From Nocardia miyunensis NBRC 108239 (lineage in GTDB: Bacteria > Actinomycetota > Actinomycetes > Mycobacteriales > Mycobacteriaceae): DNA of 64,000 nucleotides. The position numbers and the translations under genes were made by a program. Within the stretch, counting starts at the first letter, position 1. Every line of letters begins with the position of its first letter. This document shows positions 7,928 to 57,246 of the stretch, piece by piece. The stretch is from assembly GCF_001613065.1 (NCBI RefSeq), contig NZ_BDBQ01000013.1, positions 62,001-126,000 of the forward strand, in the 5' to 3' direction. The notes below the pieces were generated by a model. The model made no database searches. It was given only the letters and a program-made list of their open reading frames with translations, and had not been told where the DNA came from.

Positions 7928-7931
7928 CCGG

Positions 7932-8810: not shown

Positions 8811-9004
8811 CCGCCTGGATGCGAACGCTTGCCCCGGCCGATCACGACGCACGCCGGTGGGAACCGAAAACCCTTCGGCTGCTGCTGTTCTCGATCCCTG
8901 CCCGCCTCGCACGCCATGCCCGGCGAACCCACCTGCGCCTGCCGGACCACCACCTCTGGACCGGCCTCGCGCTCACCGCGCCGACCCGTCTGCAACCGGG
9001 CTGA
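8804..9004 (+). pseudogene. IS1380-family transposase, C-terminal remnant
   Basis: The frame reads LDLTAWMRTLAPADHDARRWEPKTL and later LFSIPARLARHARRTHLRL and WTGLALTAPTRLQ, which is the C-terminal end of IS1380-type DDE transposases. The rest of the transposase and any terminal inverted repeat are missing. Overlaps the last codons of the preceding gene in another frame. Confidence 0.75.
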
Positions 9005-9120
9005 CCAGCACATCACCCCTGTGAAAGATCGAGGCTAATTCCAAGCTGGGACTTACGGTTAACCTAGCTTTCGCCGGTTGGGTGATCATCGGAACATTCC
9101 CTACTTGGAAAGGTGTTTCC

Positions 9121-9495: not shown

Positions 9496-9544
9496 TCCCG
9501 TAAGTGTGGTCCGCACGTAGATGACGACGCGACCGCACACGGGT

Positions 9545-9570
9545 GGACCGGTCTTCGGGGAGACCGGTCC
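9545..9570 (+). terminator. hairpin terminator after the repeat-protein gene
   Basis: Perfect 10-bp stem GGACCGGTCT / AGACCGGTCC with a 6-base loop, followed by a weak T/A run, 50 bases after the stop codon. Confidence 0.8.
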
Positions 9571-10048
9571 TCAACATTTCTTCCGCGAATCTCTCTGCCA
9601 TGCAGGGTAATTAATCTGCTGTGGACCCAGTCCCGCTCGGCTCCACATCGGCTGCTGCTGATGACCTGTCCCGGTCTCGACCGGCTCCTGGGGGAATCTC
9701 CGGCGCGCCCCGGAACCCCCTTCGGCGAACCCGGCAACCGCCAGCTGCCTCGCCAAACCCATCAGCGCATCCTCGAGACCTTCGCCCATGGGACTCCGAG
9801 AGTCGCTACCGAGCCGGACCGAGGTGACATATGAGGAGCTCATGCGGACGTGTACACGCGCAGAGGTGGTGGCCGATCACCTCTGGGTGGCACATCGTGA
9901 CCCGGGTGACCGTGACCTTCGAGGGCGCGCACATCGTGTCACCCGACGCCGATGCTGTCCAACAGCGGCAGCGGTCCGGCGGAACCCAACGGCGCTCGGC
10001 GTGATCGACCCGGACAGCAGCGCACTTCCGTGTCATTTACGGGTGCAG
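9571..10048. other. intergenic region without a supported gene
   Basis: About 480 bases before the tRNA fragment. Open frames exist on both strands but show no recognisable protein and no convincing ribosome binding site. I see nothing else in it. Confidence 0.5.
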
Positions 10049-17531: not shown

Positions 17532-18332
17532 TTAGAACATGTCCGGGTCGGTGTCCCGGTCCAGGGGCACCTCATAGGTTTCGCTCATCGGTGCCGATCC
17601 CGGTACCTCATGTGAGGGCTCGGCGGGCCGAATGTTGGTCAATCCCAGCAATCGTCGCTGCGCGGGCGGCATGACACCGGTCTGCTGGACAGCCGGCACA
17701 TCGGTGATTCCGACGATCCGATCGAACAACTCTTCCAGGGGTGCGGGGTTTATCTCCGGCCATCGTGCTCGTGTCGCATGGCAGGCTGCGTCCCACCGCT
17801 CGGCACCTTCCCGGTCGCTGACCTGGGAATAGTCGATCCTCCAGCGTGCGTGCTCGCTGAGCTGGTCCAGGAACACCCGCAGTGAGCGGCCGTTCCCTTC
17901 CCGGAACGGATGTGCCGCATTGAGTGCCGAGAACGACCAGGCGACGGCTTCGACGAACTCGTCCCGGCCCATCCGCCGCCACGGCATCCCAGCGGCGGTC
18001 GGGATGTTTTCGGACAGATAGGGTTCCAACTCGCCCGGTGCGGCGAATCCGGCGCCGTCCTTGGACATCCTGGTTGTCCGCAGTCGCCCCGCCCATTCGT
18101 AGATGTTGCCGAACTGGTGGGCGTGGATCGCCCGCCACTGGGCCAGATCTCCGGTCCGGGCGATAGGGGCGGCTCCGCTGCGGATTTCCTGAGTCCGCGC
18201 CATCACTTCGCGGAATTCGAGAACCCAGAGGTGATAGTCGTTGACCGCGCCGATCGTATTGCGCAACATCGGCCTGCCGTCGTCGCCGGTGGTCAGGTAG
18301 CTGTCCCACGCGGACGACTCCGGGGAGGTCAT
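17532..18332 (-). CDS. Fic/DOC family protein, toxin of a Fic/VbhA-like pair
   Basis: 266 residues. Active-site loop HPFREGNGRSLRVF fits HxFx(D/E)GNGRxxR, with flap region HAHQFGNIYEWAGRLRTT. The protein aligns along its length with the other Fic protein of this island. Its ATG overlaps the stop of the antitoxin gene (ATGA), the arrangement of class I Fic modules, in which the small partner supplies the inhibitory helix. Target unknown; by family it adenylylates a host protein such as a gyrase or topoisomerase subunit. Confidence 0.9.
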   Translation of the reverse strand: MTSPESSAWDSYLTTGDDGRPMLRNTIGAVNDYHLWVLEFREVMARTQEIRSGAAPIARTGDLAQWRAIHAHQFGNIYEWAGRLRTTRMSKDGAGFAAPGELEPYLSENIPTAAGMPWRRMGRDEFVEAVAWSFSALNAAHPFREGNGRSLRVFLDQLSEHARWRIDYSQVSDREGAERWDAACHATRARWPEINPAPLEELFDRIVGITDVPAVQQTGVMPPAQRRLLGLTNIRPAEPSHEVPGSAPMSETYEVPLDRDTDPDMF

Positions 18333-18568
18333 GCCTCGGCGGAACGATCTCCGCCGCGCGAATTCGCCACACGTTCGGCGGTGCGGCGACGATACTCCGT
18401 CTCGGAGATGTCGCCGCACGCGAGTGCGACAAGGTCCACTGCGTCCTGCCGTGTCGGCTCCGTACCGGCCAGGGCCGTATCGGCCAGAGTGGCGACCACC
18501 GACTGCCTGACCGTCGCATCCAGGCCAGTGAAGACCTCCGGCCAGGCGTTTTCGAATCGAGATTCCAT
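18329..18568 (-). CDS. VbhA-type antitoxin of the Fic pair
   Basis: 79 residues: MESRFENAWPEVFTGLDATV, then SVVATLADTALAGTEPTRQDAV and VALACGDISETEYRRR. The last stretch matches the antitoxin-VbhA pattern of a short helix followed by G-(D/E)-I-S-x-x-(E/Q). A longer in-frame start exists but MESRFENAW is the natural one. Directly upstream of and overlapping fic. The exact inhibitory Glu cannot be assigned by eye. Confidence 0.7.
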   Translation of the reverse strand: MESRFENAWPEVFTGLDATVRQSVVATLADTALAGTEPTRQDAVDLVALACGDISETEYRRRTAERVANSRGGDRSAEA

Positions 18569-18666
18569 GTACACCAAGGATACTGATGGTCTCCACGGAA
18601 CTACTCGCGTGCAGCCTGTCGATCGGCGACCTACCATGGGCCCAACGCCGGGCAATCAGGAGCACG

Positions 18667-19071
18667 ATGAACCTCGACGACATCCGCCAGGTCGAACAGT
18701 ACGTCGCCATCGCAGAGGCCGCTCTGCGTGAACTGTCGTCCGCGCAGAGCATCACCGACGCCGAGACGATCGTGTCCAAGTCACGAGAAGACGCCCTCAT
18801 CGAGCATTTGAAGACCGCGAAGGCCGGTCTGGACCGCGCTCGCGACATGCTCGACGCCGCCGACCGCGACGGCGATCCGGACATGATCAGCCTGGTCCGT
18901 GGACATCTCGACCGCAAAACCCTCGAGTACGACGAACTGTATGCGACCGTGCGCAGAGAACTCGTCGCGCTGACGAAAGCCCGGCTCGATGCTCACGTGG
19001 ACGTCGCTCTCAGGCGGCAGGTTCTCGACGCTGCCTGCGACGCCGCCGCCGAGTCGGCATCCCAACTCTGA
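18667..19071 (+). CDS. hypothetical coiled-coil protein
   Basis: 134 residues, almost entirely helical and charged (MNLDDIRQVEQYVAIAEAAL, IEHLKTAKAGLDRARDMLDA, ATVRRELVALTKARLDAHVD), consistent with an antiparallel coiled coil. CAGGAGCACG precedes ATG. Divergent from the Fic/antitoxin operon. Not recognised. Confidence 0.65.
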   Translation: MNLDDIRQVEQYVAIAEAALRELSSAQSITDAETIVSKSREDALIEHLKTAKAGLDRARDMLDAADRDGDPDMISLVRGHLDRKTLEYDELYATVRRELVALTKARLDAHVDVALRRQVLDAACDAAAESASQL

Positions 19072-32204: not shown

Positions 32205-32606
32205 ATGATCATGCCCCACCGTGCGAAACCGCCTGCGAACCAATTGTGCTTCGACATACCAGAATTCGATCCGCGACCCTTGGTGGCCTCTGGACCCGAC
32301 CTGGCCAGCTACCACATCATCATCGTGTCGAGTTCGGCAGGAAAAGACAGCCAAGGCGCGTTGGAGATCACCATGCGCGCCGCACGCGCCGCCGGAGTCG
32401 CCGATCGCGTCGTCTGCGTGCACGCAGACATGGGGATCATGGAATGGAGCGGAGTCAAAGAGTTGGCCGCCGAACACGCGGCGCACTACCGGGTTCCGTT
32501 CATCCTGGCCCGCCGAAACGGTCCCAACCTGCTCGAGCACATCGAGAGCCGAGGCCGGTTCCCGAGCAGCTCTGCTCGTTTCTGCACTGTTGACTGCACT
32601 ATCTGA
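32205..32606 (+). pseudogene. PAPS-reductase family protein, N-terminal half (interrupted)
   Basis: N-type ATP pyrophosphatase fold. HIIIVSSSAGKDSQGALEIT carries the PP-loop (S-x-G-K-D-S variant), followed by RVVCVHADMGIMEWSGVKEL and RGRFPSSSARFCT. At that point the frame runs into foreign sequence (VDCTI, stop). The missing continuation SDHKRGPIRVVLTALV begins about 9.3 kb to the right. Phage- and plasmid-borne members of this family occur in DNA phosphorothioation and other sulfur chemistry, but the role of this one is unknown. Confidence 0.85.
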
Positions 32607-32652
32607 CCATCCTCCATCATGGCGATTCCGTTGTGATGGGAGGAGAACTGGA

Positions 32653-33849
32653 TTGGATATCCGTCAGCAGTTGATGCAGGGTCGGGCAGCGCTACCTCGG
32701 GCCGGATCGGTCGTCGCGGTCGACCGCGCGCACCCCCCGTTCGTGGTGCTGGACTCCGGCGGCGTTGAGATCACCGCGGTCACCGAGTATCTGGCCGAGC
32801 TGGCACTCGGTGATTCGAGCCCGCTGACCTGCCGAAGCTACGCCTACGACCTGCTGCGCTGGTTCCGCGTGCTCTGGGTACTGGAGATCGACTGGGACAC
32901 AGCGACTCAGTCCGAGGTGGCCGTGATGGTCGGGTGGCTGCGCACCGCGCCGAACCCGCAGCGGCAGCGACGCAAGGCGACATCGCCCCGACCGGGAACG
33001 GTCAACCTCCGCACCCGCAAGCCCGCCCTGGCGGCCGGGTACGCGCGCACGACCATCAATCACGCATTATCCGCGGTTGGCGGGTTTTACGAGCACCACA
33101 GCTACTTCGGCTGCGGCCCGGTGATCAATCCGGTCCCGGTGTCGCCGCAGCGTCGAGCGGCGCTGGCTCACCGCAGCCCGCTGGAGCCGACACCGCCCAC
33201 TCGGCGGGCCCGGATGCGGCAGCGGGTCCCAGACCGGTCGCCGCGCGCGATTCCAGATCGGTTGTGGGATGCGCTGTTCGAGGCGATGGGGTGCGAACGC
33301 GACCGCGCGCTGCTGGAGTTCTTCGTCTCCAGCGGTGCCCGCGCAGCCGAGCTGCTCGAGGTGACACCCGAGGATATCGACTGGGCTGGTAGGCGAATCT
33401 ACGTGGTGTCCAAGGGAACCCGGAACCGGCAGCCGGTACCCGCGTCCCCGCAGGCTTTCGTCCGCCTGGCGCGTTACTTGACCGAGATCGGAACGCCACC
33501 GGCAGGCCAATCGATCTGGCGAGCCCGCCGCGGCCCGGACCGCCCGATGACCTACTGGACGCTGCGCCGAGTTCTTCAGCGCGCCAACGATATTCTCGGC
33601 ACCAACTGGACTCTGCACGATATGCGGCACACCGCGGCCAGTCGCATGGCCAACAGTGGCCGTCTCCAGCTGCACGAGGTCCAGGAAATTTTGCGGCACG
33701 CGAACATCCAGACCACCAACCGCTACGTCACCGTGGGGATCGAGGAACTGTTCGACAAGCTCGCCGAACACTACAACCGGGAACGACCTCCCACCTCCTA
33801 CGCCGCACGCTACAACCAGGTCGACATCGCGGCGGTGTTCGGTGCCTAG
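32653..33849 (+). CDS. tyrosine recombinase, TnpA-type of a Tn554-like element
   Basis: 398 residues. N-terminal SAM-like core-binding domain (LTCRSYAYDLLRWFRVLWVL), then the catalytic domain with FFVSSGARAAELLEV (first catalytic Arg near residue 228), HDMRHTAASRMA (His and second Arg) and LRHANIQTTNRYVTV (His and nucleophile Tyr near residue 358). TTG start chosen because GGGAGGAGAAC precedes it. Its end overlaps the start of the second recombinase by 8 bases, so the two are co-translated, as in Tn554 transposition modules. Confidence 0.88.
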   Translation: MDIRQQLMQGRAALPRAGSVVAVDRAHPPFVVLDSGGVEITAVTEYLAELALGDSSPLTCRSYAYDLLRWFRVLWVLEIDWDTATQSEVAVMVGWLRTAPNPQRQRRKATSPRPGTVNLRTRKPALAAGYARTTINHALSAVGGFYEHHSYFGCGPVINPVPVSPQRRAALAHRSPLEPTPPTRRARMRQRVPDRSPRAIPDRLWDALFEAMGCERDRALLEFFVSSGARAAELLEVTPEDIDWAGRRIYVVSKGTRNRQPVPASPQAFVRLARYLTEIGTPPAGQSIWRARRGPDRPMTYWTLRRVLQRANDILGTNWTLHDMRHTAASRMANSGRLQLHEVQEILRHANIQTTNRYVTVGIEELFDKLAEHYNRERPPTSYAARYNQVDIAAVFGA

Positions 33850-36262
33850 GTCCCAGGTCAGCCCTACCACCGGTGTCAGCCGCCGCCACGGACCTGTCGT
33901 GCCGGAACTCGGATTCCCCAGCCGCTTCGCGTGGGGATCGTCCATCGAGGCCGAACCCGGGACACCGACCGTCGTGCCACGGCCGTTCGGTGAGCTGGAC
34001 AACGCCCCCGCCGACCATATCGCCGAGCATGCATACAGCTACGACGACGGATCGCTGCCCAAGCGCAAGTTCCGTCGCGACGGGGTCCGCGCCGTCCTGG
34101 ACTACCTCGGCCAGTTCGGCGGCCACGGCTGGCAGCAGAAGTGGGACGCCAGCCCGCTCGGGGCCGGCACGGTCCGGGCCGCCGATATCGGTCCGGCGAT
34201 CGGGGTCGGGATCCGAACCCTGTACTGCCTGCGTGCGGTCCGGCCCACCCTGTTGGCGTTCCGGGCCAACCCGCCGGTCTACTTCGGAACCGAATTTGTT
34301 CTCACGCAAGGCGATCCGTTGTTGGAGAAGTTCGTCCAGCAGGTGGCCGAGCAGGACTTCGTGCACGAGCACCGGCTCAGGGCGGTGTTCGATGTCACCA
34401 CTCTGCTGACTGTGCAGGGCATCGGCCTGGCCGATCTCACCCCGGCGGCCATGCTGCACCACACGCACGAGACGCGGCGGGTGAACGCGATCCTGCAACC
34501 CGCGAGCAAGGTGACGAACCGGTTCATCGGCCAATCGGCGTGGACCGTACTGCACGCGATGGGGCACTTCCCGGCCGGTACCCCAGAGACGATGCGCGCC
34601 GCGCTGCACCGTGGCCAGCTCAGCGTCGAGGAACTGGTCGACCGCTACTCCATCGGCAACCAAGCCGTGCGCCAGCTGCTGATCGAGTACTTCCACCGCC
34701 GCGCGGCCGACACCGACTACTCGAGCCTGTCGAACCTGGTCCTCATGATCGCCTTCCACTTCTGGTCCCGGATCGAACAGATCAACCCGGGCCAGGCCGA
34801 CCTGCGCATCAGCACCGACACCTACACCCGGTGGCGCGAAGCGATCAAAGTCCGCGACGACGGCAAACCACGGGCCGGTCAGGACGTCATCCTCATCGCC
34901 GTCCGCAGCTTCTACTACGACCTGCACACCTGGGCCGCCGACGAACCGGAGAAGTGGGCCGTCTGGGTCGCTCCCTGCCCGATCCCGCCGAGCGAGCTCC
35001 GCGGACTGGGCACCCGACGTCGGCGGATCAACGACCGCTCCGCCGACCGGACCCGGATCCGGCAGCCCCTGCTGCCGACCCTGGTCAAACACGTCGAGGA
35101 TCGATACGACCGCGCCCGCGCGCTGTTCGAGCAGGCTCGCTCCGTCGCGGTCGGGGAGACCCTCGTCTACGACAGCACCACCTACCGGCGCATCGCACAG
35201 ACCCACCATCCGCATCCGGACGATCCGGTTCGGGTCCGCGATGAGGCCACCGGCACGGTGCTGGCCGTCCAGGCCGATGAGGAGGCTGCGTTCTGGGACT
35301 GGGCATGCGTGGAAACCCTGCGGCACTCCGGCGCTCGGATCGAGGAGATGTGCGAACTCACCCATCTGTCGATCCGCCAATACCAGCGCCCGAACGGGGA
35401 GGTGATCGCCTTGCTGGTCATCGCGCCGTCCAAGACCGACCGCGAGCGCGTCATACCGATGAGTGCCGAGTTGTTCCACGTCATCGCCGCGATCGTGCGC
35501 CGCCACACCAGCGGCGGCCGGACTATCCCCCTGTTGAGCCGGTTCGACCCGCACGACAAGATCTGGAGCGCACCGATGCCGTTCTTGTTCCAGCGGCGCA
35601 CCGGCCCGAAACGCAGTGTGATCGCCGGCGGCACCGTGCTGAACCAGCTCAAACGGCTCTGTACCGAACTCGCCGAACACCACCCGGCATTCCGGACCGT
35701 GAAGTTCACCCCACACGACTTCCGGAGAATCTTCGCCACCGAACTGGTCAACAGCGGCCTGCCGATCCACATCGGCTCAGCTCTGTTGGGCCACATGAAT
35801 ATTCAGACCACCCGCGGGTACGTCGCGGTATTCGACGAAGACGTCGTCCACCACTACGTCGCATTCCTCGCCGAACGCCGACAGCTGCGGCCCACCGACG
35901 AATACCGGCCACTCGCGGCCGGGGAATGGGACGAGTTCGACGAACACTTCGACAAACGCAAAGTCGAACTCGGCTCGTGCGGAAGACCTTACGGCACGGG
36001 CTGCGCCCATGAATTCGCCTGTGTCCGTTGCCCGATGCTGCATGTCGATCCCCGGATGATCACCCGACTCGACGAACTGGAGGACGACCTGCTGCAACGC
36101 CGCCAGCGCGCCGAAACCGAAGGGTGGGCCGGGGAAATCGAGGGCATCGACATGACCCTCACCTTCCTGCGCGCCAAACGAGACGACACCAAGCGACGGT
36201 CACAGCGGCCGACGGTCACCCTCGGCCTGCCAACAACACCCCGGAGACAGATCAGGGGCTGA
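33842..36262 (+). CDS. large tyrosine recombinase, TnpB-type of a Tn554-like element
   Basis: 806 residues. A long N-terminal region (about 470 residues) precedes the catalytic domain, which has LRHSGARIEEMCEL (Arg near 497), HDFRRIFATELVNSG and LLGHMNIQTTRGYVAV (Tyr near 660). A C-terminal Cys motif (GYGTGCAHEFACVRCPMLHVD in outline) and a coiled segment with GWAGEIEGIDMTL are typical of TnpB proteins. GTG start overlapping the upstream recombinase. No third small TnpC-type gene is visible directly downstream. Confidence 0.87.
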   Translation: MPRSQVSPTTGVSRRHGPVVPELGFPSRFAWGSSIEAEPGTPTVVPRPFGELDNAPADHIAEHAYSYDDGSLPKRKFRRDGVRAVLDYLGQFGGHGWQQKWDASPLGAGTVRAADIGPAIGVGIRTLYCLRAVRPTLLAFRANPPVYFGTEFVLTQGDPLLEKFVQQVAEQDFVHEHRLRAVFDVTTLLTVQGIGLADLTPAAMLHHTHETRRVNAILQPASKVTNRFIGQSAWTVLHAMGHFPAGTPETMRAALHRGQLSVEELVDRYSIGNQAVRQLLIEYFHRRAADTDYSSLSNLVLMIAFHFWSRIEQINPGQADLRISTDTYTRWREAIKVRDDGKPRAGQDVILIAVRSFYYDLHTWAADEPEKWAVWVAPCPIPPSELRGLGTRRRRINDRSADRTRIRQPLLPTLVKHVEDRYDRARALFEQARSVAVGETLVYDSTTYRRIAQTHHPHPDDPVRVRDEATGTVLAVQADEEAAFWDWACVETLRHSGARIEEMCELTHLSIRQYQRPNGEVIALLVIAPSKTDRERVIPMSAELFHVIAAIVRRHTSGGRTIPLLSRFDPHDKIWSAPMPFLFQRRTGPKRSVIAGGTVLNQLKRLCTELAEHHPAFRTVKFTPHDFRRIFATELVNSGLPIHIGSALLGHMNIQTTRGYVAVFDEDVVHHYVAFLAERRQLRPTDEYRPLAAGEWDEFDEHFDKRKVELGSCGRPYGTGCAHEFACVRCPMLHVDPRMITRLDELEDDLLQRRQRAETEGWAGEIEGIDMTLTFLRAKRDDTKRRSQRPTVTLGLPTTPRRQIRG

Positions 36263-36553
36263 AATCCACTCCGTGAGAGCCTCACTCACCTTGCGGATGA
36301 GAGCTCTTGCGGGGCCGGACTTTCCTCGACGATGGCAGCCAGCACGTCTCAGGACCGTACCCAACACTCGTCGCCCAGCGGCACACAAGATATTCATGCA
36401 CAGTGCTCATACGGTAGTGAATCGCCAGGGTTTTTGTGTACGCCTGGTTATCTATCTCGAGCCGGTCGTTCGGAGCAGGTCGAATGGTCGTCGGCTTCGT
36501 ACTCGACCGCTGGTCGGCGACCGAGCCGGTGCATCAGCCGGGAGTTGTGTGTG
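36263..36553. other. non-coding stretch after the recombinases
   Basis: 291 bases with no convincing frame; a TnpC-like gene would be expected here but is not seen. Confidence 0.45.
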
Positions 36554-37496
36554 TTATCCCCTTGGGTTTTCGAGGAAGGTGCGGAGCTGGCGGGCTGGGA
36601 GCGGGTGGGAGAACAGCCAGCCCTGGTAGAGGTCGATTCCGAGTCGTTCGAGGGCCTGGAACTGGCCGGTGGTTTCCACGCCCTCGGCGACACAGCTGCG
36701 TCCCATTGTCTTGGAACACCATCACCCAGAACCGCGTTCCGTCGTCGGCCACCGACACCGCGCTGTGCACATCACAGGGCACCGGCTGGCCATCCGAGCG
36801 CAGCAGCGTCCGCTGGTGCACGCGGGATTGGTTCAACGTCGCCTCCGCCGCTGCCGCATCCGTGATGAGGCTCGGACCACGATCGTCGGGATGCAGCAGG
36901 CTTGCCGCGGGCATGGCGTCGAGTTCAGGCAGCCGGTAACCCAGCAGGCCACACAGCGCCTCGTTGGCGTCCAGCACTTGCCCGGCTTCGTCGAACAACG
37001 CAATACCGGCCGGGACGAGGTCGAACAGGTCGGTGAACCGCCGACTCGACCGCTGCTGCCGGATACCGGCTTCGGTCTCATCACGGGTGACCTGGATGAA
37101 ACCCTGCACGCTGCCCTCCAGCGACTTCTGCGCAGTGATCACGACATGGGCCCAGAACCGGGTGCCGTCGCGACGCACGCACCAGCCCGCGTCCACATGC
37201 CTGCCGAACTCGGCGGCCTGAGCCAGGTCCCAGTCCGCGTGGTCGGCAGTGCCGGGTTCCGCCGGGGCAAACACCGAGAAATGTCTCCCGATGATGTCCC
37301 CGCCGCGATAGCCCGTGATGAGTTCTGCCCCGTTATCCCAGCTCTGCACACGGCCGGCCGTATCGAGCACGAAGATCCCGTACTCACGCATTCCCGCAGC
37401 CAGCAGACCAAGTCGCGCGTCAGCCTTCGACTGCAGCCGCGCAATGCCGCCGTGCCCTCCTCTGGGCACGAATCCGGTATCACGGTCCTTATCCAT
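36554..37496 (-). pseudogene. PAS-GGDEF-EAL signalling protein with internal deletion
   Basis: Starts MDKDRDTGFVPRGGHGGIAR and carries two PAS domains: one with GIFVLDTAGRVQSWDNGAEL and ITGYRGGDIIGRHFSVF, the second with LFDLVPAGIALFDEAGQVLD and CGLLGYRLPELDAMP. After FWVMVFQDN the sequence jumps, in another frame, straight to MGRSCVAEGVETTGQFQALE and YQGWLFSHPLPARQL, the extreme C-terminus of an EAL domain. The GGDEF domain and most of EAL are gone, so no cyclic-di-GMP activity can remain. Confidence 0.8.
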
Positions 37497-37567
37497 GTGA
37501 CCCCAACATGTTCGATCTCGAACCTCATTTTCGCAGTTTCGATCGGGGCCCATAGAGACCAGAGACC

Positions 37568-37885
37568 CTATATTGGCTGGGCAACGGGGCTTGACGATGC
37601 CTGCCAGCCGTAATCGGCAAGGTTTCCGGCCCGGTTGTAGTTGCTGCCGAGCGCCAGTGGCGCGAAGGTCTGCCCGAAGAGTCGGCGATCTATGTGGCGC
37701 CCTACCAGGCCGTCTCTGCGCCGATACGTTACGACCACATCCTTGATCAAGCACCGTCCAGGTGTGACCATGCTGCAGTTGGCTTCGATCTCCACGAGCT
37801 GGCCCGGCCGCAGTTCGCTGATGCCGATCAGGCGGTCGCAAACCCGCTTCTGGGGCTCGATGAGTGCGAAGTTCTCCTGGTCCAA
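37568..37885 (-). CDS. hypothetical protein
   Basis: 105 residues from a TTG: MDQENFALIEPQKRVCDRLI, LVEIEANCSMVTPGRCLIKD, VVTYRRRDGLVGRHIDRRLF. Reads like a soluble beta-rich protein. The start lies at the edge of an IS1380 remnant, so the N-terminus may be lost. Not recognised. Confidence 0.5.
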   Translation of the reverse strand: MDQENFALIEPQKRVCDRLIGISELRPGQLVEIEANCSMVTPGRCLIKDVVVTYRRRDGLVGRHIDRRLFGQTFAPLALGSNYNRAGNLADYGWQASSSPVAQPI

Positions 37886-37887
37886 CT

Positions 37888-38070
37888 CGCGAGGACGATG
37901 GTCGCATCGAGATCAATGATCAGCGGGTTCGCCGCGATGATCGCACGGTCCGGCGCATGGCCACCGGCGGCGCGCCAAGCTTTCGCGCGGGCTTCGTGGC
38001 GGGCGGATCGTAACGCGGACAATACTTTCGGTGCGTGGGCGGCGAGCGTGGTGATGCCGAACACGCGGGG
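37888..38070 (-). pseudogene. IS1380-family transposase, internal remnant
   Basis: Minus-strand frame with ALRSARHEARAKAWRAAGGH and AIIAANPLIIDLDATIVLA, the segment around the first catalytic Asp of IS1380 transposases. Both sides are lost. A different part of the same family survives near position 8900. Confidence 0.65.
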
Positions 38071-38105
38071 TTTCGGCGCGCAGGACCGGGATATCGGGGG
38101 CCGAG

Positions 38106-38674
38106 GATCGGGGCGCGGAGATCCTGGGATCGGATGCGCCGCTGCGGGAGCGGGTGTTGTGACACATGCTGTACGAGTCCTCGGCGCGCGCCGAGGAGAT
38201 GCTGATGTTGGACGTGGCGGATCTCGATCCGGCGAATCGGTGTGCGGTGGTGACCCGCAAGGGCGGGGCGCGTCATTGCGTGGCAGACCGGCACCGCCCG
38301 GTTGTTGCCGCGGATGCTGGCCGGCCGCAAATCCGGTCCGCTGTTCCTCACCGACCGCAAGGCCCGTGCTTCGGTGGTCCGCAACGACGTCGACCGGGCG
38401 ACGGGGCGGGCACGGTTGCCCTACCGCCGCGCGGCCGAGCTGTTCGAGGCCTACACCGAGTGTTTCGACGACGGCCCGTACACGCTGCACCAATTGCGGC
38501 ATTCCCGGTTAACGCACGCCAGGCAGGAAGGGCGCGTCGACGCCGGTGTTGATGAAGCTGTCGGGGCACGCGTCGGTGCGTAGTCTCGGCAAGTGCGCGA
38601 GGGTGTCCGACGAGGGGCTACGGCGTTATCGCGCCGACAGCGACCTGGCTGCGCGTCGGCGGTGTGGTCACTGA
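38106..38674 (+). pseudogene. degenerate tyrosine integrase
   Basis: Pieces in three frames assemble to a phage-type integrase: APLRERVL-stop-HMLYESSARAEEMLMLDVAD (a TGG-to-TGA-like stop before the first catalytic Arg), then LPRMLAGRKSGPLFLTDRKA, then YTLHQLRHSRLTHA, then LMKLSGHASVRSLGKCARVS (position of the nucleophile region, Tyr now Cys). At least one nonsense and two frameshift lesions; inactive. Confidence 0.75.
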
Positions 38675-39132
38675 TCGGCGCAGGTGCCCATCGCGGCGTG
38701 GTTGGTGATGGTGCGGGGTTCGTGATTTCCGCACATCGTGTTTGGTGATGTAGATCGGGAGGGTTCGCCGGTTGCTCGGGGCGCGGGGTCGGTGCTCGGG
38801 TGGACGACCTGCAGCACGATCACGGTGCCGTTGGTTCCGTACACGTAAATGGTGTTGAACAGCTCGAACGGGTACGGATCGAGTGGGATGGCGCGGTCGT
38901 CCATGAGTAGATGCGAACCGACGGGTGACCAGACGGTCGGGTCATACACCACGCGCGATATCGGCCCGGTCCGTAACTCGAACGCGGTGAGCAGATCGGG
39001 GAGCTCGGCGACGAGGTCGCTCGATCGTGGCCACCAGGTAGCGTCGATGTAGTCCTTCGGATCCGGATGAAGATGAAGTCGCGAGGTCGAGTCGAGAACT
39101 CGCGGCGGCGGGGGTAGCGGTGATGGCGTCAT
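38668..39132 (-). CDS. DUF5994 family protein
   Basis: 154 residues. Signature DATWWPRSSDLVAELPDLLT, GPISRVVYDPTVWSPVGSHL and NTIYVYGTNGTVIVLQVVHP matches DUF5994, common in mycobacteria and Nocardia, often in stress-related clusters. ACAGGAGCG precedes ATG. The C-terminal 40 residues are variable. Two further paralogs lie on the plus strand of the same element. Family function unknown. Confidence 0.8.
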   Translation of the reverse strand: MTPSPLPPPPRVLDSTSRLHLHPDPKDYIDATWWPRSSDLVAELPDLLTAFELRTGPISRVVYDPTVWSPVGSHLLMDDRAIPLDPYPFELFNTIYVYGTNGTVIVLQVVHPSTDPAPRATGEPSRSTSPNTMCGNHEPRTITNHAAMGTCADQ

Positions 39133-39256
39133 CGGACGCTCCTGTCGCGGCCTTGCCGAAAGGCCGGATCGTCGAATCCGGTGACGACGCAACCTCTGCT
39201 GGTCAGCGCGCGTGTTGCCGCCGGATACTGTCGAGCTTACGCCCTGGAGGTGGCCA

Positions 39257-40161
39257 TCAGTGGTGCGGATTACTGCGTGCCTGCTCACGGATGAGCTGGT
39301 CGGCGGTCCACAGCGGTTGCAGCATGTGCCAGTCGGCGGGGTGCGCGGCGATTCCGGCGGCGAACCGGTCGGCCAGTGCCTGAGTCGTGGGCTGCACGCC
39401 GCCGGTGGTGTCGATCGGCGCGTCGACGTGGAATCCCCAGCCGCCGGGGGTGAACCAGCAATGCACCGGTAGCAATGGTGCACCGGTGTCGATCGCCAGC
39501 CGGGCCGGACCGGTCGGCATGCGCGCCGGTTCGCCGAAAAAATGGTCGGCATACCCGCACCGGTCACATCGCGCTCACCGAGCAGCCCCACGATCCGTCC
39601 CTGCCGCAGCCGTGCGCTCAGCTGCTCGAACGGTGGTACCTCGCCACCGGTGAGCGGGACGATCTCGAATCCCAGACGTTCACGGAACCGGACGAAGCGC
39701 TGAAACAATGATTCCGGTTGCAGCCGCTCGGCGACGACGGTCGGCGTGCCGACCCGCTGTACCAGCCACACTCCCGCCAGGTCCCAGTTGCCGCTGTGCG
39801 GAAGCGCCAGCACCGCGCCGCGCCCGCCCTGGACTGCCTCGTGGATGTGTTCGAACCCGGTGGCCGCGGAGTCGATGGTCTCCGCGAGCCGCACCGGATC
39901 CATCGACGGCAGCCGGAACGCCTCACACCAGTAGCGGGCGTAGGAGCGCAGGCTCGCGCGCACCAGTTCGTCGGGAACCCGCTCCGGGGTGGTGGACAGC
40001 ACCCGGGCCAGATTTCGGCGTAGCTGAACCGGTCCGCCTCCCCGGGCCGCGCGATCGGCCGCGACCTCGAACGATCGCATCGCCCAGCGCTGCGGCACGG
40101 CCCGCACCAGCCGCCAGCCGGCCGCGTACCCGAGATCCCACGCGCGGGCGATCAGGGTCAC
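39257..40161 (-). pseudogene. PatA-like phosphatidylinositol mannoside acyltransferase, frameshifted
   Basis: Lysophospholipid-acyltransferase superfamily; the chromosomal PatA acylates phosphatidylinositol mannosides at the inner membrane in mycobacteria. Visible: GGPVQLRRNLARVLSTTPER, the HX4D motif in LALPHSGNWDLAGVWLVQR, and LFQRFVRFRERLGFEIVPL. At 39540-39545 a run of T residues (minus strand) is one short: adding one T continues FFGEPARMPTGPARLAIDTG and the family C-terminus AAHPADWHMLQPLW. GTG start after GAGGGG. An extra copy of a normally chromosomal gene, carried on a transposon. Confidence 0.82.
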
Positions 40162-40527
40162 TGACCAGTACCGGGCCCCTCCTGAACACCGGCAGATCGT
40201 GGCGGTATCCGGCTGTGCACAGGTGTCGGCGGGTTCGGCGAGGTGACCGGACGGGCACGGGCGCCGACGATTGTCGCCTTCCATCTCTCGAGTGTCCTCC
40301 CCATCTACCGTGAACGGCAGCAACCTCCGACCACAACACCGCCGACACCGACAATGACGACTCGGGAAAGAGCGCAGGTCACTGTGCATGCGTGCACGTC
40401 GGGCCGGTGTGTACCCGGTGGGTAGGATGAAGGTGTCGGGGGCTTTTCGTACGAGACCACCCGTGGTCTGGTCGTCGCCCGGCGAATGTACAGGGGCTGC
40501 CACGCGGCCCCGGTCAGGAGCGTCGTG
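40162..40527. other. divergent intergenic region
   Basis: 366 bases between the minus-strand patA-like gene and the plus-strand DUF5994 pair. No supported gene; presumably promoters of both. Confidence 0.45.
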
Positions 40528-41130
40528 ATGACGCGACAACACGAGCCGATCCTGCTGGATCGCTCTTCACGCTTTACCCTCCGCAGCGGCCCGCCGCCGG
40601 CGTCACGGCGGTTACCGACACCGCGAGCACCGCGCCCGGGGGCGGTGGATGGGGCTTGGTGGCCCCGCACGAGCGACTTGGTCGCCGAATTGTCCGATCT
40701 GGAGGCGCTGCTGGCCGGGCGGGCAGGCAATCTCGACCGAATCATGTACAACATGGACGCCTGGCAGCTGGCCCCGAGGCGCACGATGATCGGCGGGCGT
40801 TCGGTTCGCCTGGACGGATACCGGCACCTGTCCGCCCACACTCTCTGTGTCCTGGGCCTGGACCGCACCCGCCTGGTCCTGTTGGTGATCCCCGCCCACA
40901 CCCAGAACGCCCCCGCCCAGACGTTGCTGTGGGCCGCGTCCCGACCGGGCAATGAACTCACCGCCGACGAACTCCTGGCCGCCGACACTCGGCGCAGCCT
41001 CGACCACACCCAGAACGAGGCCGCGTTGCGCCGCTGGGACGACGAAGGCGGCCACCCCGCGCCGATGCACCCGGCAAACCGACGCGCATCGGCCGCCCGA
41101 TCCCCATCCCGTGCGGGAGGCCTGATATGA
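40528..41130 (+). CDS. DUF5994 family protein
   Basis: 200 residues. DGAWWPRTSDLVAELSDLEA, GNLDRIMYNMDAWQLAPRRT and LVLLVIPAHTQNAPAQTLLW give the family. The C-terminal extension includes LLAADTRRSLDHTQNEAAL. CAGGAGCGTC precedes the start. The stop overlaps the next ATG (ATGA), so it forms an operon with the next paralog. Confidence 0.8.
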   Translation: MTRQHEPILLDRSSRFTLRSGPPPASRRLPTPRAPRPGAVDGAWWPRTSDLVAELSDLEALLAGRAGNLDRIMYNMDAWQLAPRRTMIGGRSVRLDGYRHLSAHTLCVLGLDRTRLVLLVIPAHTQNAPAQTLLWAASRPGNELTADELLAADTRRSLDHTQNEAALRRWDDEGGHPAPMHPANRRASAARSPSRAGGLI

Positions 41131-41600
41131 CACAGAACCCGCCGCAGAGCGGCGGCGCCGCCGACCGCGGCCTGGGCCGATTCCAGGCCAGCGCCGAGGG
41201 TGGGCAACCATTCGACACACCGACCCGCACACCGCGGCTGCTGCTGCGCGAGCGTGACGAGGAATCCGGTGGCGTCGACGGCGTCTGGTGGCCCAGAACC
41301 GACAACCTCACCAGCGAACTGCACGACCTGGTCACCGCCCTCACCCCGCGACTGGGCCCGACTGCCCGGATCAGCTTCGACTGGAATGCGCTGAGCCTTT
41401 CTCAACGCCGCATCGACGCTCCCGACGGGATCGAGGTCACCGGACCGCTTCCGGACCAGCCACCCCAGGTGATGGATGTCTTCGGCCCGCACGATCGGCG
41501 CCTTCGATTGCTGGTGGTCAACCCCGCCACTACCGCAGACCTCGCCCACGCGCAGATGCACAAAGCCGTAAGTGCCAGCGCCGACCAGCCGCCATCGTGA
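41127..41600 (+). CDS. DUF5994 family protein
   Basis: 157 residues, third paralog: DGVWWPRTDNLTSELHDLVT, PTARISFDWNALSLSQRRID, RRLRLLVVNPATTADLAHAQ. Coupled by ATGA to the preceding copy. Its end touches a Tn3-transposase remnant on the other strand. Confidence 0.78.
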   Translation: MTQNPPQSGGAADRGLGRFQASAEGGQPFDTPTRTPRLLLRERDEESGGVDGVWWPRTDNLTSELHDLVTALTPRLGPTARISFDWNALSLSQRRIDAPDGIEVTGPLPDQPPQVMDVFGPHDRRLRLLVVNPATTADLAHAQMHKAVSASADQPPS

Positions 41601-41796
41601 ACCAGGCATGTTCGAGCCTGGTCTTCTCCCGATCCACATAGCCCTTCACACACGCCGGATCGGCGATGTCGAGCTGTTCAGCGACGTAGGCGACCACCTC
41701 CGTAGGCACAGCCAACGGATCGGCCAGGAACATCCCCAAGTGACGGACCGTCACCAACTGAAGCGCGAACTTTGCCAGAGCCCATCCTGTCTGCAT
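41599..41796 (-). pseudogene. Tn3-family transposase, N-terminal domain remnant
   Basis: Minus-strand frame LAKFALQLVTVRHLGMFLAD then PLAVPTEVVAYVAEQLDIAD and CVKGYVDREKTRLEHAWF is the N-terminal DUF4158 region of Tn3 TnpA proteins. Nothing else of the transposon remains. Confidence 0.8.
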
Positions 41797-41919
41797 CCGT
41801 GAACATCTCCGAAGAGGCGCGGCGGCGGCACGCCAATAGGGCTCTGAACAACTCAAATCACGACTTCGCGGGCTGAGCCACTCGTCCGCCACGGTGATGC
41901 ACATCTGGTGCAGAGAAGT

Positions 41920-42519
41920 ACCAGTGACCACAAGCGTGGGCCGATCCGGGTCGTCCTGACCGCCCTCGTCGAGCAGGCACGCAAACGATTCGGGCTGAAC
42001 CAGGTACGGGTCCTGTCGGTGATGGGCATGAGAGCCCAGGAATCCCCGGCCCGCGGCCGCCTCGTGCCGTATTCCCACGACAGCAGCCAGACCTGTCCGT
42101 GTCTGCCGTGCCACCACAAACGCGCCGCCGCCGCCGAATACACCGCCCGGAAAGAGAAAGTGCCCGATCACCTCAAGGTCGGCCACGGCGCATCCAACAC
42201 CCGCCGACACGTCGACACCTGGCTGCCGGTCCACGATCTCACGACCGAACAAATCTGGGAACTCGTGGCAGAAGCCGGAACTCGCCCACACCCCGCCTAC
42301 GGCTGGGGAATGCCGCGCCTGAGCTGCTCGGCGTGCGTGCTCTCGTCGAAATCCGCGCTCATCCTCGCCGCCCAGCTACGCCCCGACCATGTCGCCGAGA
42401 TCGCGCGACTCGAGGCCCGAATCGGGCATCGCTTCCAACACAAACTGTCGATGGCCGAGGTGATCGACCTCGCGGCCAGACAACCCCGCATCGACGTCGT
42501 CGAGAACTGGGCCGCATGA
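41920..42519 (+). pseudogene. PAPS-reductase family protein, C-terminal half (interrupted)
   Basis: Begins TSDHKRGPIRVVLTALVEQA, the direct continuation of the N-terminal half left of the 9.3-kb insertion. Further: VRVLSVMGMRAQESPARGRL, the Cys cluster CPCLPCHHKR, PVHDLTTEQIWELVAEAG and RLSCSACVLSSKSALILAA. The four-Cys arrangement (CxCxxC ... CSAC) could hold an Fe-S cluster, as in DndC-like enzymes. A GTG at 41908 could allow translation of this half alone, but without the PP-loop it should be inactive. Rejoined, the protein would have about 328 residues. Confidence 0.85.
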
Positions 42520-53147: not shown

Positions 53148-53291
53148 CCGACGACCCCCTGCGGCCAGGTCGGCGCCACCGCTGCCGAACCGGGATCCCT
53201 GCCGTCGCCTGCGGCTGCCAGGGGCGATCCAGTGGTTCCCCTCTGCATCCCCGTCTGTTGTTGTTTCCGTTCTCATTACTCGGGAGTTGTT

Positions 53292-54515
53292 GTGACCGTT
53301 GCTGTTTCACCTGTTGCCGTTGGCTCTGCGGTACCCGCGTCTACCGACGCGACCATGCGTGCGATCGTGTCCGAGCTGTCGGACCGGTTCTACGAGCGCG
53401 GGGAGGTCGTTCATGCCGTCGTCGTGGCCGTGCTGGCGCGGCAGCACTCGTTTCTGCTCGGCCCGCCCGGCACCGGAAAATCCGAGTTGTGCCGTGCGCT
53501 GACCGAACGGATCATCGGTGCGCGCCGGTGGGAGATGCTGCTGTCGAAATTCACCTCTCCCAGCAAGATGTTCGGGCCCATCGACGTCGGCGCGCTGGCC
53601 CAGGGCCAGTACCGGCAGATCCTGGACGACCACGCCGCCACCGCTCACATCGCCTTCGTCGATGAAATTTTCAAATGTGGTGTCGGCGCATTGAACGAGA
53701 CTTTGTCGTGGCTCAATGAACGCCGCTACTCTCCCGAAGCCGGTGGGGCTCCGATCGAGTGCCCGCTGATTTCCGCGGTGACCGCGTCCAACGAGCTGCC
53801 CGACGGCGAGGAGACCGCCGCGATCTGGGACCGGCTCAGCGTCCGCATCCACGTCGACTACCTGCGCACCGAATCCACGTTCATCGACCTGCTCAAGTCC
53901 GACCCGACCGGATCCGGACCCGTCACCACGGTCGATCTGGACGCGCTGTTGCACGCGGTGCACATCGAGGTGCCCGCGGTGACCGTGCCCGACGCGGTTT
54001 TCGACACCATCGCCGCGTTGCGGACCACGCTGCGGGCCGATGGGATTGTCGTGTCGGATCGGCGCTGGAAACAGAGCGTCGGGTTGTTGCGGGCCTCGGC
54101 ATGGCTGGCCGGCCGCGACCGCGTCCAGGACACCGATCTGACGATCCTGACCCATGTGCTGTGGTCGGCCCTCACCGAACGGCAGACAGTGGCCGAGCGG
54201 GTCCTGGAAGCGGTCAATCCCGACGAGCGTGAGGCGTTGACCGTCGAGGAGTCGATCACCGACCTCGGCCGCGAGTTCGACCGCAAACACGCCGACCTGT
54301 CCCCGGACGACCTGTGCGTATGGGTCATCAAGGAGGCCAACAACAAACTGAACTCGCTGAAAACGACGCTGTCGGAACTGCATTCGCGGGCAAGCGCCGC
54401 GGCACGGTCCACCAGCACCATCGACCGGGTCGAGTCCATTCGCGCGGACCTGCACGCGCGAATGATGTCCCAGCTGCTCAACGCCCCCACCACTACGGAC
54501 GGGACCCAGCCGTGA
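53292..54515 (+). CDS. MoxR/RavA-type AAA+ ATPase
   Basis: 407 residues. Walker A GPPGTGKS at residues 57-64, Walker B FVDE at 122-125, sensor-1 Asn in SAVTASNELPDGEET, and a C-terminal helical lid with SDRRWKQSVGLLRASAWLAG and LTHVLWSALTERQTVAERVL. The FYERGEVVHAVVVAVLARQH start and lid order resemble RavA more than other MoxR branches. Such ATPases work with VWA proteins as chaperone-like remodellers. GTG start after GGGAG. Its stop overlaps the VWA gene's GTG, giving translational coupling. Confidence 0.9.
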   Translation: MTVAVSPVAVGSAVPASTDATMRAIVSELSDRFYERGEVVHAVVVAVLARQHSFLLGPPGTGKSELCRALTERIIGARRWEMLLSKFTSPSKMFGPIDVGALAQGQYRQILDDHAATAHIAFVDEIFKCGVGALNETLSWLNERRYSPEAGGAPIECPLISAVTASNELPDGEETAAIWDRLSVRIHVDYLRTESTFIDLLKSDPTGSGPVTTVDLDALLHAVHIEVPAVTVPDAVFDTIAALRTTLRADGIVVSDRRWKQSVGLLRASAWLAGRDRVQDTDLTILTHVLWSALTERQTVAERVLEAVNPDEREALTVEESITDLGREFDRKHADLSPDDLCVWVIKEANNKLNSLKTTLSELHSRASAAARSTSTIDRVESIRADLHARMMSQLLNAPTTTDGTQP

Positions 54516-56143
54516 GCACGCCGCAGCCGCAGCCGCAGCCGCACTCCACGGTCGGCCAGCTCGCGGGGCGGGCGGCGCGCTGGCTCGGGCTGGGCCACCC
54601 CGCCCCGCAGCATCGCCACGCCGTGGCCGGGGACCGGCTCGACGAGCAGGTCTGGACCCAGACCTTCGACGAAGCCCCCGCTCTGCCGGTGCTGGAGAAC
54701 CAGATCAGCGACGGTCACACCCACCCCGGCGATTTGCTGCACGACCTGTTCCTGGCCGCCTACAAGGCCCAGCCTCGTATTCGTGACGCCGAGGACATGC
54801 TGGTGTCCCGGCTGCCCAATCACGCGGTCGTGTCCTCGATCGCCCGGACCCCGGAATTCCAAGCCCTGCACCGGCACACCGTCGGCGACCGGTACGCCGC
54901 GGCGATGGCTGTGCTGGCCCACGCCGACGCCCTGAAATCCTGGTCGGACGACAGCGACCAGGCGCAATCCGCCGCCGACGACGCGGACCAGCACGCCCGC
55001 CGCGCCCAGGACGCCACCGATGCGGTGACCGCCGCATTCGACGACGCGACCGCGGGACGGGACCTGTCCGACCCGGTCCCGGACCAGCAGGCCGACACGG
55101 TCGATCGGGCTATCGCCGACGCGAGCGCCGCCGCCCAGGACGCCGCCGATGCCGCCGCGGACGCTCAGCATGCCGCGGCCGAGGTCGGGGCCGCACTCCG
55201 GGCGAACCTGCGGGCCGCCGCCGACAAGGCTGTCCAGGACGCCGCCGCCGAGCAAGCCCTCATGACGGCGTGGGGTATCCCCGACGAGCAGTTGGAACGG
55301 ATGTCGTTTCGGGAGCGCACCGCACTGGCGCAGCGGCTGCGGTCCGGGCGTTTGGGCGAGTTCGCCGATCTGATCGGCCGGTTCCGAGTGATGGCCGCGG
55401 GCATCTCCGCGCGCCGCAGCAGCCACGGCCGCGACGAGGTCATCGGTGTCACCCTCGGCGCCGATCTGTCGCGGCTGATCCCCTCCGAGCTAGCCGCCAT
55501 CGGGGTCCCCGCACTGCGGGCGGTGTTCGCCGCCAAATACGCCGAGCAGCAACTGGCGATGTATCAGACCGTCGGACCGAAGCCTGAAAACCGGGGAGCG
55601 ATCATCGCGTGCATCGACTGTTCCCCCTCGATGCGCCAGCGCCATCCCGGCCCCGGCGGTCGAGAGGTGACCCGCGAAGCGTGGGCCAAGGCCTGCGGGC
55701 TGGCGCTGTTGGACCAGGCCCGCCGCCAGCACCGCGATTTCGTCGCAATCATGTTCGCCGCCACCGACGACGTCTCGGTCTACCGATTTCCCGCCACCGA
55801 CGAACCGCTCCTGGACCAGGTACTGGCATTTGCCGACCATCCCACCGGCCACGGCACCGACTTCCGAGCCCCCTTGGAACAGGCCGCGGACATTCTCGCC
55901 GGCCAATACAACCACGACGGCGCGGCCAAGGGCGACATCGTGCTGATCACCGACGGCGAAGACCACCTCGCCGACGCCTGGCTCTCGCGGTGGCGGGATC
56001 GCAAGGCCCGCTTGGGATTCCGCACCTTCGCCATCGCCATCGACACCACCCCGACCGACACCCTGACCACCCTGGCCGACCATCTCACCCTCGTCGACGA
56101 ACTCGTCCCCGCCGCCGCCGACGACCTGTTCACCGCCCTGTAA
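54512..56143 (+). CDS. VWA-domain protein, ViaA-like partner of the MoxR ATPase
   Basis: 543 residues. The C-terminal von Willebrand A domain has a complete MIDAS: ACIDCSPSMRQ (DxSxS near residue 368), the Thr in GHGTDFRAPLEQ and the Asp in VLITDGEDHLADAW. The N-terminal half holds an Ala/Asp/Gln-rich coiled stretch (SAAAQDAADAAADAQHAAAE) and a conserved helical block (WGIPDEQLERMSFRERTALA, LRSGRLGEFADLIGRFRVMA) like ViaA. Metal-dependent binding of a client or partner is expected. Second gene of the triad. Confidence 0.9.
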   Translation: MSTPQPQPQPHSTVGQLAGRAARWLGLGHPAPQHRHAVAGDRLDEQVWTQTFDEAPALPVLENQISDGHTHPGDLLHDLFLAAYKAQPRIRDAEDMLVSRLPNHAVVSSIARTPEFQALHRHTVGDRYAAAMAVLAHADALKSWSDDSDQAQSAADDADQHARRAQDATDAVTAAFDDATAGRDLSDPVPDQQADTVDRAIADASAAAQDAADAAADAQHAAAEVGAALRANLRAAADKAVQDAAAEQALMTAWGIPDEQLERMSFRERTALAQRLRSGRLGEFADLIGRFRVMAAGISARRSSHGRDEVIGVTLGADLSRLIPSELAAIGVPALRAVFAAKYAEQQLAMYQTVGPKPENRGAIIACIDCSPSMRQRHPGPGGREVTREAWAKACGLALLDQARRQHRDFVAIMFAATDDVSVYRFPATDEPLLDQVLAFADHPTGHGTDFRAPLEQAADILAGQYNHDGAAKGDIVLITDGEDHLADAWLSRWRDRKARLGFRTFAIAIDTTPTDTLTTLADHLTLVDELVPAAADDLFTAL

Positions 56144-56187
56144 CCCCCGCAGAGCTCTGACCAGCAGAACCTCGAGAGGACATCACG

Positions 56188-57246
56188 ATGACCGCCCTTG
56201 CATCCTTTTACGTCGCACCCGCCGCCAATCACAACCGGCTGGCCGCCTACACCGACCAGACCAGCCGCAATCCGCTCTTGGGTTACATCGTGGTCTACAG
56301 CGTGTTCCGCGGCCAGATCACGCTGGCCGACGCGACCGCGCAGTTCCGGGATCTGCGCTTGAACACCGACCTGTTGCCCGGACCGCTGCGCGCGGACGAC
56401 GCGTTCCTGCGCGTCACCGGCGCCGACGGCATCCGCGACACCTACCGTCTGGACACGCTGCGCGACGACGGCACCGACGCCCCGGTACCCGGTGCGCCGA
56501 GCCCGGCCGGTCCCGTGCGGTCGGCCAGCCTGATGATCCGTCCCGTGCGCCGCGACAGCCAGCGCATCGTGCGCCACATCGTGCGTGAACTGCGTGATGA
56601 ATCCGCCTCTACCCTCGCCTACGACACTCACCTGGGCGAAGTCGTCTTCGAACGCGACAGCGCGTCGAGCAGGTCCGGCCGGATGGTGATCCGGCTGGAC
56701 CACGATGCGATCGCCGCGGAGCTCTCGCCCGCCGAGCAGCAGCGTGTGCACGCCCTCGTGCGCGCGGTCCAGGAGCAACATCGGTGGCAGTGCGAGTATC
56801 TGGGGGCCGACCGGATCCGCACCCTGCTGCGGGAGTACATGCACCGCCTCGACGCGGTTCCGGTGCGCCCCACCGGCGGGGTGTATTTCATCACCGCCGA
56901 CCATGAGGCCACCCTCGAGGGTCTGCACCAGTTCATCGAGGGCCTCGGGCACCACAGCATGTTCGCCCGCATCCCGCTGCCGGATGAGACCGAGATGCGT
57001 CAGCTGATCATCACCTCGTTCATCGCCTCCGCCAAGGACGCGCTCCAGAAGCTGTCCACCGACATCGCCACCGCACAGCGAACCGGCGTCACCGACAACA
57101 AGCGCAAGGCCCTGTTCGACCGGTTCCGCACCCTCAAACACCAAGCCGCCGACTACTCCCAGCGGCTCGAGACCGGCCTGGGCGACACCACCTCATCGCT
57201 CGATCTGGTCGAAACCCAGCTCACCGCCCTGTTGCAGTCGCAGTAA
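56188..57246 (+). CDS. third gene of the MoxR-VWA triad, unknown function
   Basis: 352 residues: LLGYIVVYSVFRGQITLADA, VRRDSQRIVRHIVRELRDES, HLGEVVFERDSASSRSGRMV, TGGVYFITADHEATLEGLHQ, LPDETEMRQLIITSFIASAK. Alpha/beta N-terminal two-thirds and a long helical C-terminus. I recall similar proteins next to MoxR-VWA pairs in actinobacterial plasmids and phages but cannot name the family with certainty (DUF6744 is a candidate). GAGAGGAC precedes ATG; 44 bases after the VWA gene, same transcript. Possibly the client or targeting subunit. Confidence 0.75.
   Translation: MTALASFYVAPAANHNRLAAYTDQTSRNPLLGYIVVYSVFRGQITLADATAQFRDLRLNTDLLPGPLRADDAFLRVTGADGIRDTYRLDTLRDDGTDAPVPGAPSPAGPVRSASLMIRPVRRDSQRIVRHIVRELRDESASTLAYDTHLGEVVFERDSASSRSGRMVIRLDHDAIAAELSPAEQQRVHALVRAVQEQHRWQCEYLGADRIRTLLREYMHRLDAVPVRPTGGVYFITADHEATLEGLHQFIEGLGHHSMFARIPLPDETEMRQLIITSFIASAKDALQKLSTDIATAQRTGVTDNKRKALFDRFRTLKHQAADYSQRLETGLGDTTSSLDLVETQLTALLQSQ

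Follow-up and report, generated by a model that had tools for sequence, protein, structure and literature searches.

What splits a PAPS-reductase-family gene of Nocardia miyunensis NBRC 108239 into two distant parts, and what kind of DNA lies between them? The gene sits in a 64,000-nucleotide stretch of DNA (the window) from a genome of 10.5 Mb in 208 contigs. In-silico deletion of 32585-41918 (9334 bp) yields a 326-aa frame with zero internal stops, reading RFC/TSDHK across the join. The original prediction had placed the unit at 32588-41920 and given the restored frame about 328 codons; its location and the continuity of the frame stand, whereas the exact coordinates and the length had to be corrected. 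The borders read CGTTTCTG/CACT-GTTGACTGCAC...GTGCAGAGAAG/TACCAGTGACC, and the rejoined gene reads CGTTTCTG/TACCAGTGACC. The left gene part ends in SARFCT followed by VDCTI and a stop, the right part begins at TSDHK, and the insertion separates the third base of the Cys codon from the first two, within a conserved Cys-Thr-Ser-Asp stretch. There is no target duplication, and residues missing at the junction, which would speak against a precise split, were looked for and not found. With a probability of roughly 90%, we read 32585-41918 as a site-specific, actinobacterial Tn554-related transposon, with putative recombinase-binding arms, a proposed circular intermediate, insertion at a fixed Cys codon and exchangeable cargo. 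The sequence itself shows the borders, the uninterrupted homologs, the repeated use of site and ends, the recombinase homology and the difference in cargo. The features are:

32205-32584, + strand: 5' part of the PAPS-reductase-family gene, which breaks off two bases into the Cys codon of R-F-C
32585-32588, + strand: 4-nt junction CACT at the left border, non-target at the same position in sister elements and ambiguous in the window
32589-32599, + strand: left end GTTGACTGCAC, with CTGCAC arm
32653-33849, + strand: tnpA, ordinary-size tyrosine recombinase (398 aa, Phage_integrase PF00589)
33842-36262, + strand: tnpB, outsize tyrosine recombinase (806 aa, GTG start, Phage_integrase PF00589)
36263-41907, unstranded: cargo region, with zero blastn similarity to the N. 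abscessus copy
36534-37916, - strand: PAS-domain ORF (cargo)
38668-39105, - strand: DUF5994 domain (cargo)
39257-40146, - strand: phosphatidylinositol mannoside acyltransferase-like gene, broken, in two frames (cargo)
40486-41130, + strand: DUF5994 protein (cargo)
41127-41600, + strand: DUF5994 protein (cargo)
about 41602-41772, - strand: remnant with DUF4158 (cargo)
41908-41918, + strand: right end GTGCAGAGAAG
41919-42519, + strand: 3' part of the PAPS-reductase-family gene, whose T completes the Cys codon before TSDHK

Of 148 Nocardia genomes, 23 contain a match to the right half of the gene. Nineteen homologous loci were read at the junction: 14 are uninterrupted there (L004, L005, L006, L009, L010, L011, L013-L018, L026, L027), four carry an element right end (L007, L021, L022, L024) and one is cut by a contig end (L008). 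Within the uninterrupted set, the L014 gene is broken elsewhere along its length, and only part of the gene remains in L017 and L018. As the original prediction had proposed as a check, the joined protein was aligned to such homologs, and it runs across the junction against L004 (66.8% over 319 aa), L005 (55.5% over 321 aa) and L006 (56.9% over 304 aa), which bears out a precise split and defines the Cys codon as the target site. Since the joined protein aligns in this way and its two halves correspond to successive parts of phrog_424 (phosphoadenosine phosphosulfate reductase), positions 159-250 and 260-375, the split gene is not a product of chance. Thirteen of the 14 uninterrupted loci were re-read base by base, and all have Cys then Thr, encoded by TGC except for TGT in L005; because the right junction in the window starts with T, TGT is a possible original Cys codon here. 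In Pfam, the right half scores slightly below the cut-off (21.2 of 22.5 bits), and plasmid homologs are annotated as PAPS reductase family. Viral contigs yielded no relative of the right half, with nine pattern matches and zero confirmed.

The two overlapping tyrosine recombinases predicted beside the left boundary were confirmed, with an 8-bp overlap at 33842-33849. The tnpA start, TTG at 32653, was picked by eye, with GGAGGA immediately upstream. Against a Tn554 reference (NZ_CP102072.1, L158, whose annotation lists two recombinases together with DUF6262, ant(9) and erm(A)), TnpA shares 21% identity over 373 aa (E 7e-17) and TnpB 23% over 283 aa (E 4e-15). The TnpB alignment spans the C-terminal HxxACxxC region, here HEFACVRC and uninterrupted at these codons in the window; the N-terminal ~490 aa gave no convincing alignment. 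Judging from its pattern, the HxxACxxC motif might bind a metal. TnpC (DUF6262) is absent from the window element by the PF19776 profile, which matches in 37 of 148 genomes and, in the source genome, once on contig C163 outside the window. Bastos and Murphy, going by a 1988 title, reportedly found three products to be required for Tn554 transposition, TnpC being one of them, and its absence here counts against our preferred explanation. In the 1.6 kb after tnpB, 14 elements share no gene, with blastn giving 0 between different elements and tblastx scattered short pieces. An ORF at 36273-36629 considered as TnpC had no Pfam or NCBIfam match and no counterpart in relatives. The claim that the recombinases are the only intact mobility genes holds for the ORFs scanned, alongside the DUF4158 remnant at about 41602-41772 (-), a domain that forms the N-terminal part of Tn3-type transposases. 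At 38166-38583, a suspected recombinase fragment had no Pfam match.

The ends form an imperfect inverted repeat, with 15 of 25 positions agreeing at zero offset, and a sister element has a perfect 11-bp inverted repeat, CTGAACTAACT/AGTTAGTTCAG. The original prediction saw no terminal inverted repeats, "as in Tn554"; neither part survives, as Tn554 ends are likewise imperfect inverted repeats in the available part of PMC10214605. The motif TT[AG]ACTGCAC lies shortly upstream of tnpA in eight of nine elements with a window-like TnpA; the ninth, G147, has no such left end upstream of tnpA, which counts against our preferred explanation. More distant relatives have left ends TT[AG]ACTGAAC or TTGACCGGAC. 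Right ends recovered by pattern search are GTGCAGA[GT]AAG and GTTCAGAGAAG, the CCGGAC-type right end not being among them; since fixed patterns miss divergent ends, the search of 14 loci gave none in L072 (whose end is in L073), L074, L076, L081 and L082. In a tree of 22 TnpA proteins, a branch (100/99) sets the nine TGCAC-ended rows apart from all others; two changes are needed for the twelve TGAAC rows, and CCGGAC is represented by one row. Taken together, the three end types require two changes on this tree, the smallest number possible, against a shuffled mean of 8.2, with 0 of 200 shuffles as low.

The insertion site also recurs. The right end followed by downstream reductase codons was found in eight of 148 Nocardia genomes (the source G000, G009, G042, G063, G085, G086, G117 and G139), and in 0 with the reversed control. 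Alignment to the window reductase stands behind all of these except G086, identified by pattern; as the pattern itself nearly dictates T-S-D/E, the translated codons add only weakly to it. Several interrupted right halves have decayed through stops or frameshifts, and in G057 a left end meets this codon. In Nocardia abscessus NBRC 100374 (G085), an element occupies the same reductase codon, and residues 1-726 of its TnpB are 83% identical to those of the window. By blastn, no similarity connects the two cargoes. The N. abscessus copy also contains nested insertions: a TGAAC-type element interrupts its tnpB at codon 726, and a further element, which has the ends GTGGAATCTGA/TCAGATTCCAC and another kind of recombinase, interrupts its tnpA near codon 139 (L072, ~6306-9790, G085:C2). 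Judged by this comparison, the DNA carried from tnpB to the right end can be exchanged; in the window, part of it has decayed. No identical copy of the window element was found elsewhere, which counts against our preferred explanation.

In G086, Streptomyces L225 and the metagenome-assembled contig L227, GTGCAGA[GT]AAG precedes TSEYK or TGEYK. The right flanks alone have zero Pfam matches, and those of L227 and G086 match plasmid proteins mostly annotated as hypothetical. Since an intact plasmid protein reading RRQC-TGEYK matches phrog_424 (E 1e-49; Pfam PAPS_reduct only E 0.02), this site probably corresponds to the Cys codon of the window's gene, in a distant branch of the reductase family. 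As the original prediction had suggested, the recombinase pair was sought at other loci and its ends compared, and like ends flank relatives in a DUF5131 gene (G075), in a DUF2637 gene (G090, for which the left end alone was found) and on two Streptomyces plasmids, which carry TGCAC-type left and right ends. Three further arrangements were observed in reductase genes. L129 (G057:C93) has a reductase piece (~residues 90-128) between two left ends in opposite orientation; in L035 (G009:C193:7448-9651) the gene is cut at the CTSD codon and again near right-half residue 48-51, with the pieces ~1.7 kb apart; and L036 (G057:C138:45000-60000) carries a CCGGAC-type element at a second site of a same-family reductase, before an L-S-C motif.

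Present activity is, like the steps of transposition, something that we infer. TnpA and TnpB would most likely bind the CTGCAC arms near both ends and join the ends into a circular intermediate, and the circle would then insert at a fixed point of its target, here the reductase Cys codon, with target bases neither lost nor duplicated. Some four bases of the tnpA-side junction seem to be carried along with the element and would presumably originate from the donor site. We called an insertion informative on this point if it was two-ended, its 4-base junctions differed, and its target was known from conserved codons or empty copies. In all eight informative insertions of the wider family, the right (far) junction fits the target and the left (tnpA-side) junction does not, only two of the eight (G063, G075) coming from the window's own TGCAC group:

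G063, TGCAC type, in the reductase: left CATA, right CACA; Thr expected
G075, TGCAC type, in DUF5131: left CCCA, right CTTG; FFFK-QWGG expected, intact in two phages
G085, TGAAC type, in tnpB: left CACC, right CCTG
G088, TGAAC type, in tnpB, reverse: left CCCT, right CAGG
G138, TGAAC type, in tnpB, reverse: left CACC, right CAGG
G099, TGAAC type, in a Tn554-type tnpB: left CCCT, right CCTG
G120, TGAAC type, in IS21: left TCCT, right GGAC
G057, CCGGAC type, at the second reductase site: left AACT, right CCTT, assuming that the element ends in AAG

Junctions were read partly by eye, and G099 and G057 are the weakest cases. At the G120 site, five empty IS21 copies (L147-L151, 86-90% identity) all have GGAC. 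G087, with only a left end in tnpB, agrees with retention of the target at the far junction. A second element of the source genome (G000:C13 near 270 kb; left TCGT, right CCAG) sits in a HIT-domain gene and would agree too if HxHxH, which we take to be the motif of that gene, holds. The window is uninformative, CACT and TACC each fitting the target, which counts against our preferred explanation; equally uninformative are G085 in the reductase gene, with left CACA and right CACC, and G057 at the CTSD codon; the two-ended insertions G058, G145, G116, G056 and G065 stand outside the count. We first considered the SE arrangement, in which the right junction carries the donor bases, and abandoned it after comparison with the cases. 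In the available parts of the sources, the donor bases of SEs adjoin the right motif (PMC10214605), and in Tn552-II, said to agree with Tn554, the donor att enters on the right (PMC12486829). Since the non-target bases lie on the tnpA side here and on the right in SEs and Tn554-type elements, the polarity of the wider family seems to be their mirror image, and this footprint polarity is new as far as our literature searches go.

A sister group shows a different choice of target. Its exact right end, TAGTTCAGAGAAG, occurs in 30 copies in 22 of 148 genomes (the reversed pattern once); near-copies were kept, so these counts are of copies, not events. By tblastn, 15 of the 30 abut the HxxACxxC codons of a tnpB, 13 forward (tnpB from residue 727-728) and two reverse (residues up to 726), one forward junction being matched by Tn554 TnpB. 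Two further right ends (L185, L203) look tnpB-like by eye only and are counted apart. Five of the 30 abut ATP-dependent DNA ligase genes just before the active-site KxDG motif, two of which (L190, L192) continue almost identically past the right end; two abut IS21-type transposase genes (L194, L205), one abuts the HIT gene (L195), and the remaining five (L187, L189, L197, L198, L200) are without an assigned target. A TnpA clade of five rows (100/99) comprises G085, G087, G088 and G099, each in a tnpB, and G056, which is not. The same tnpB junction occurs in reverse on a Streptomyces plasmid (L159 at 3430, by eye), and in G081 a TGCAC-type end meets this codon. An end motif is present at 12 of 21 tnpB boundaries, L171 and L182 among the 12 with one mismatch; these boundaries were preselected as matches beginning or ending near codon 718-736, a choice of which the 30 copies in 22 genomes and the counts 15/30 and 8/148 are free. 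The use of tnpB as a target is new as far as our literature searches go: among open-licence papers, subscription papers lying outside, the titles and abstract openings retrieved gave no account of tnpB or PAPS reductase as a target.

Two other arrangements were seen at these codons. In L168 (G034:C87:192537) and L169 (G094:C10:16564), tnpB adjoins a different end, TTCTCTGGCAGNTCTGAG, immediately ahead of the HxxAC codons, which suggests another element family at the same hotspot. In L088 (5702-5720, G134) and L089 (2458-2472, G085:C32), two tnpB 3' fragments are fused head to head at the HxxAC codons with no element end seen between them, perhaps through recombination between two inverted target sites.

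Could the insert be something other than a Tn554-related transposon? An integrative element (an ICE/IME or prophage remnant) moving by ordinary cut-out and paste-in, whose excision would reactivate the reductase gene, is compatible with the exact restoration of that gene and with neighbouring Prim-Pol and C5-methylase genes, which are often found on plasmids and phages. We consider it unlikely, given two recombinases, one of them outsize and both matching Tn554, instead of a single integrase, and scanned cargo ORFs that resemble neither phage nor conjugation genes. A second alternative is another multi-recombinase class: SE (intA-tfp-intB-srap), GInt (ginABCD) or RIT (ritABC). Like SEs (PMC10214605, in the part available), the element is site-specific and has inverted end motifs and a short junction footprint. 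Like RITs and GInts, the window element has several adjacent recombinase genes; RITs, however, have three recombinases and GInts four genes (PMC3414803, PMC10214605 and PMC5385486, each in part), and the count of two here contradicts such an assignment. SEs also differ in carrying tfp and srap, in being reported from Gammaproteobacteria and in having donor bases beside the right motif (same part of PMC10214605). Their gene order, with tfp between the recombinases and srap after them, is absent: the 8-bp overlap means that nothing lies between tnpA and tnpB, and no gene is shared within 1.6 kb after tnpB across the 14 elements. These classes are thus very improbable. That the halves are naturally separate genes, or the junction an assembly join, is hardly credible; no support for this was found in an assembly of 208 contigs, the halves form one gene in 14 of 19 loci, and the same end meets the same codon in eight genomes.

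The Tn554-related transposon belongs to a class already defined by Van Houdt et al. 2012 (PMC3414803) and is thus a further member of it. In the available text, actinobacterial Tn554-related transposons pair a long recombinase (611-828 aa) with an ordinary one of ~350 aa, one couple lacks an obvious TnpC, and TnpC is considered maybe dispensable. The window element likewise has adjacent co-directional outsize and ordinary recombinases (806 and 398 aa) without TnpC, and the class similarly occupies actinobacterial plasmids and chromosomes. Section 10 of that paper does not give the ends, target genes or nesting in tnpB, which are worked out here. With Tn554 the element shares TnpA and TnpB homologs and, on the published description, exact site-specific insertion and imperfect inverted ends; it differs in lacking TnpC, in a recombinase identity of 21-23%, and, for the wider family, in non-target bases on the left where Tn554 has its donor core on the right (PMC12486829, in part). 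The predicted label "Tn554-like" therefore suits the two-recombinase module, exact insertion without duplication and the recurrent target, and not the missing TnpC or the apparently opposite junction polarity of the wider family.

More broadly, we lean towards a model of an actinobacterial two-recombinase Tn554 branch without TnpC and with mirror-image polarity (donor bases on the tnpA side, target core at the far end), whose attachment sites would be codons of conserved motifs (PAPS reductase CTSD, DNA ligase KxDG, DUF5131 FFFKQWGG). Since one clade favours the TnpB HxxACxxC codons, its main landing pad would be a recombinase gene of its own superfamily, entered in either orientation and giving self-limiting Russian-doll arrays. 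With the ends and target sites defined here, actinobacterial Tn554-related elements, known since 2012 by their recombinases, become open to annotation and testing. Two testable questions follow: what determines strand polarity when a two-recombinase transposon has no TnpC, and whether the insertion of transposons into each other's tnpB limits the spread of their relatives.

Elsewhere in the window, a MoxR-type ATPase, a VWA-domain protein and a DUF6744 protein are encoded consecutively at 53232-57246, a possible MoxR-vWA system, and a Fic/DOC-family ORF lies at 17532-18917 (-).
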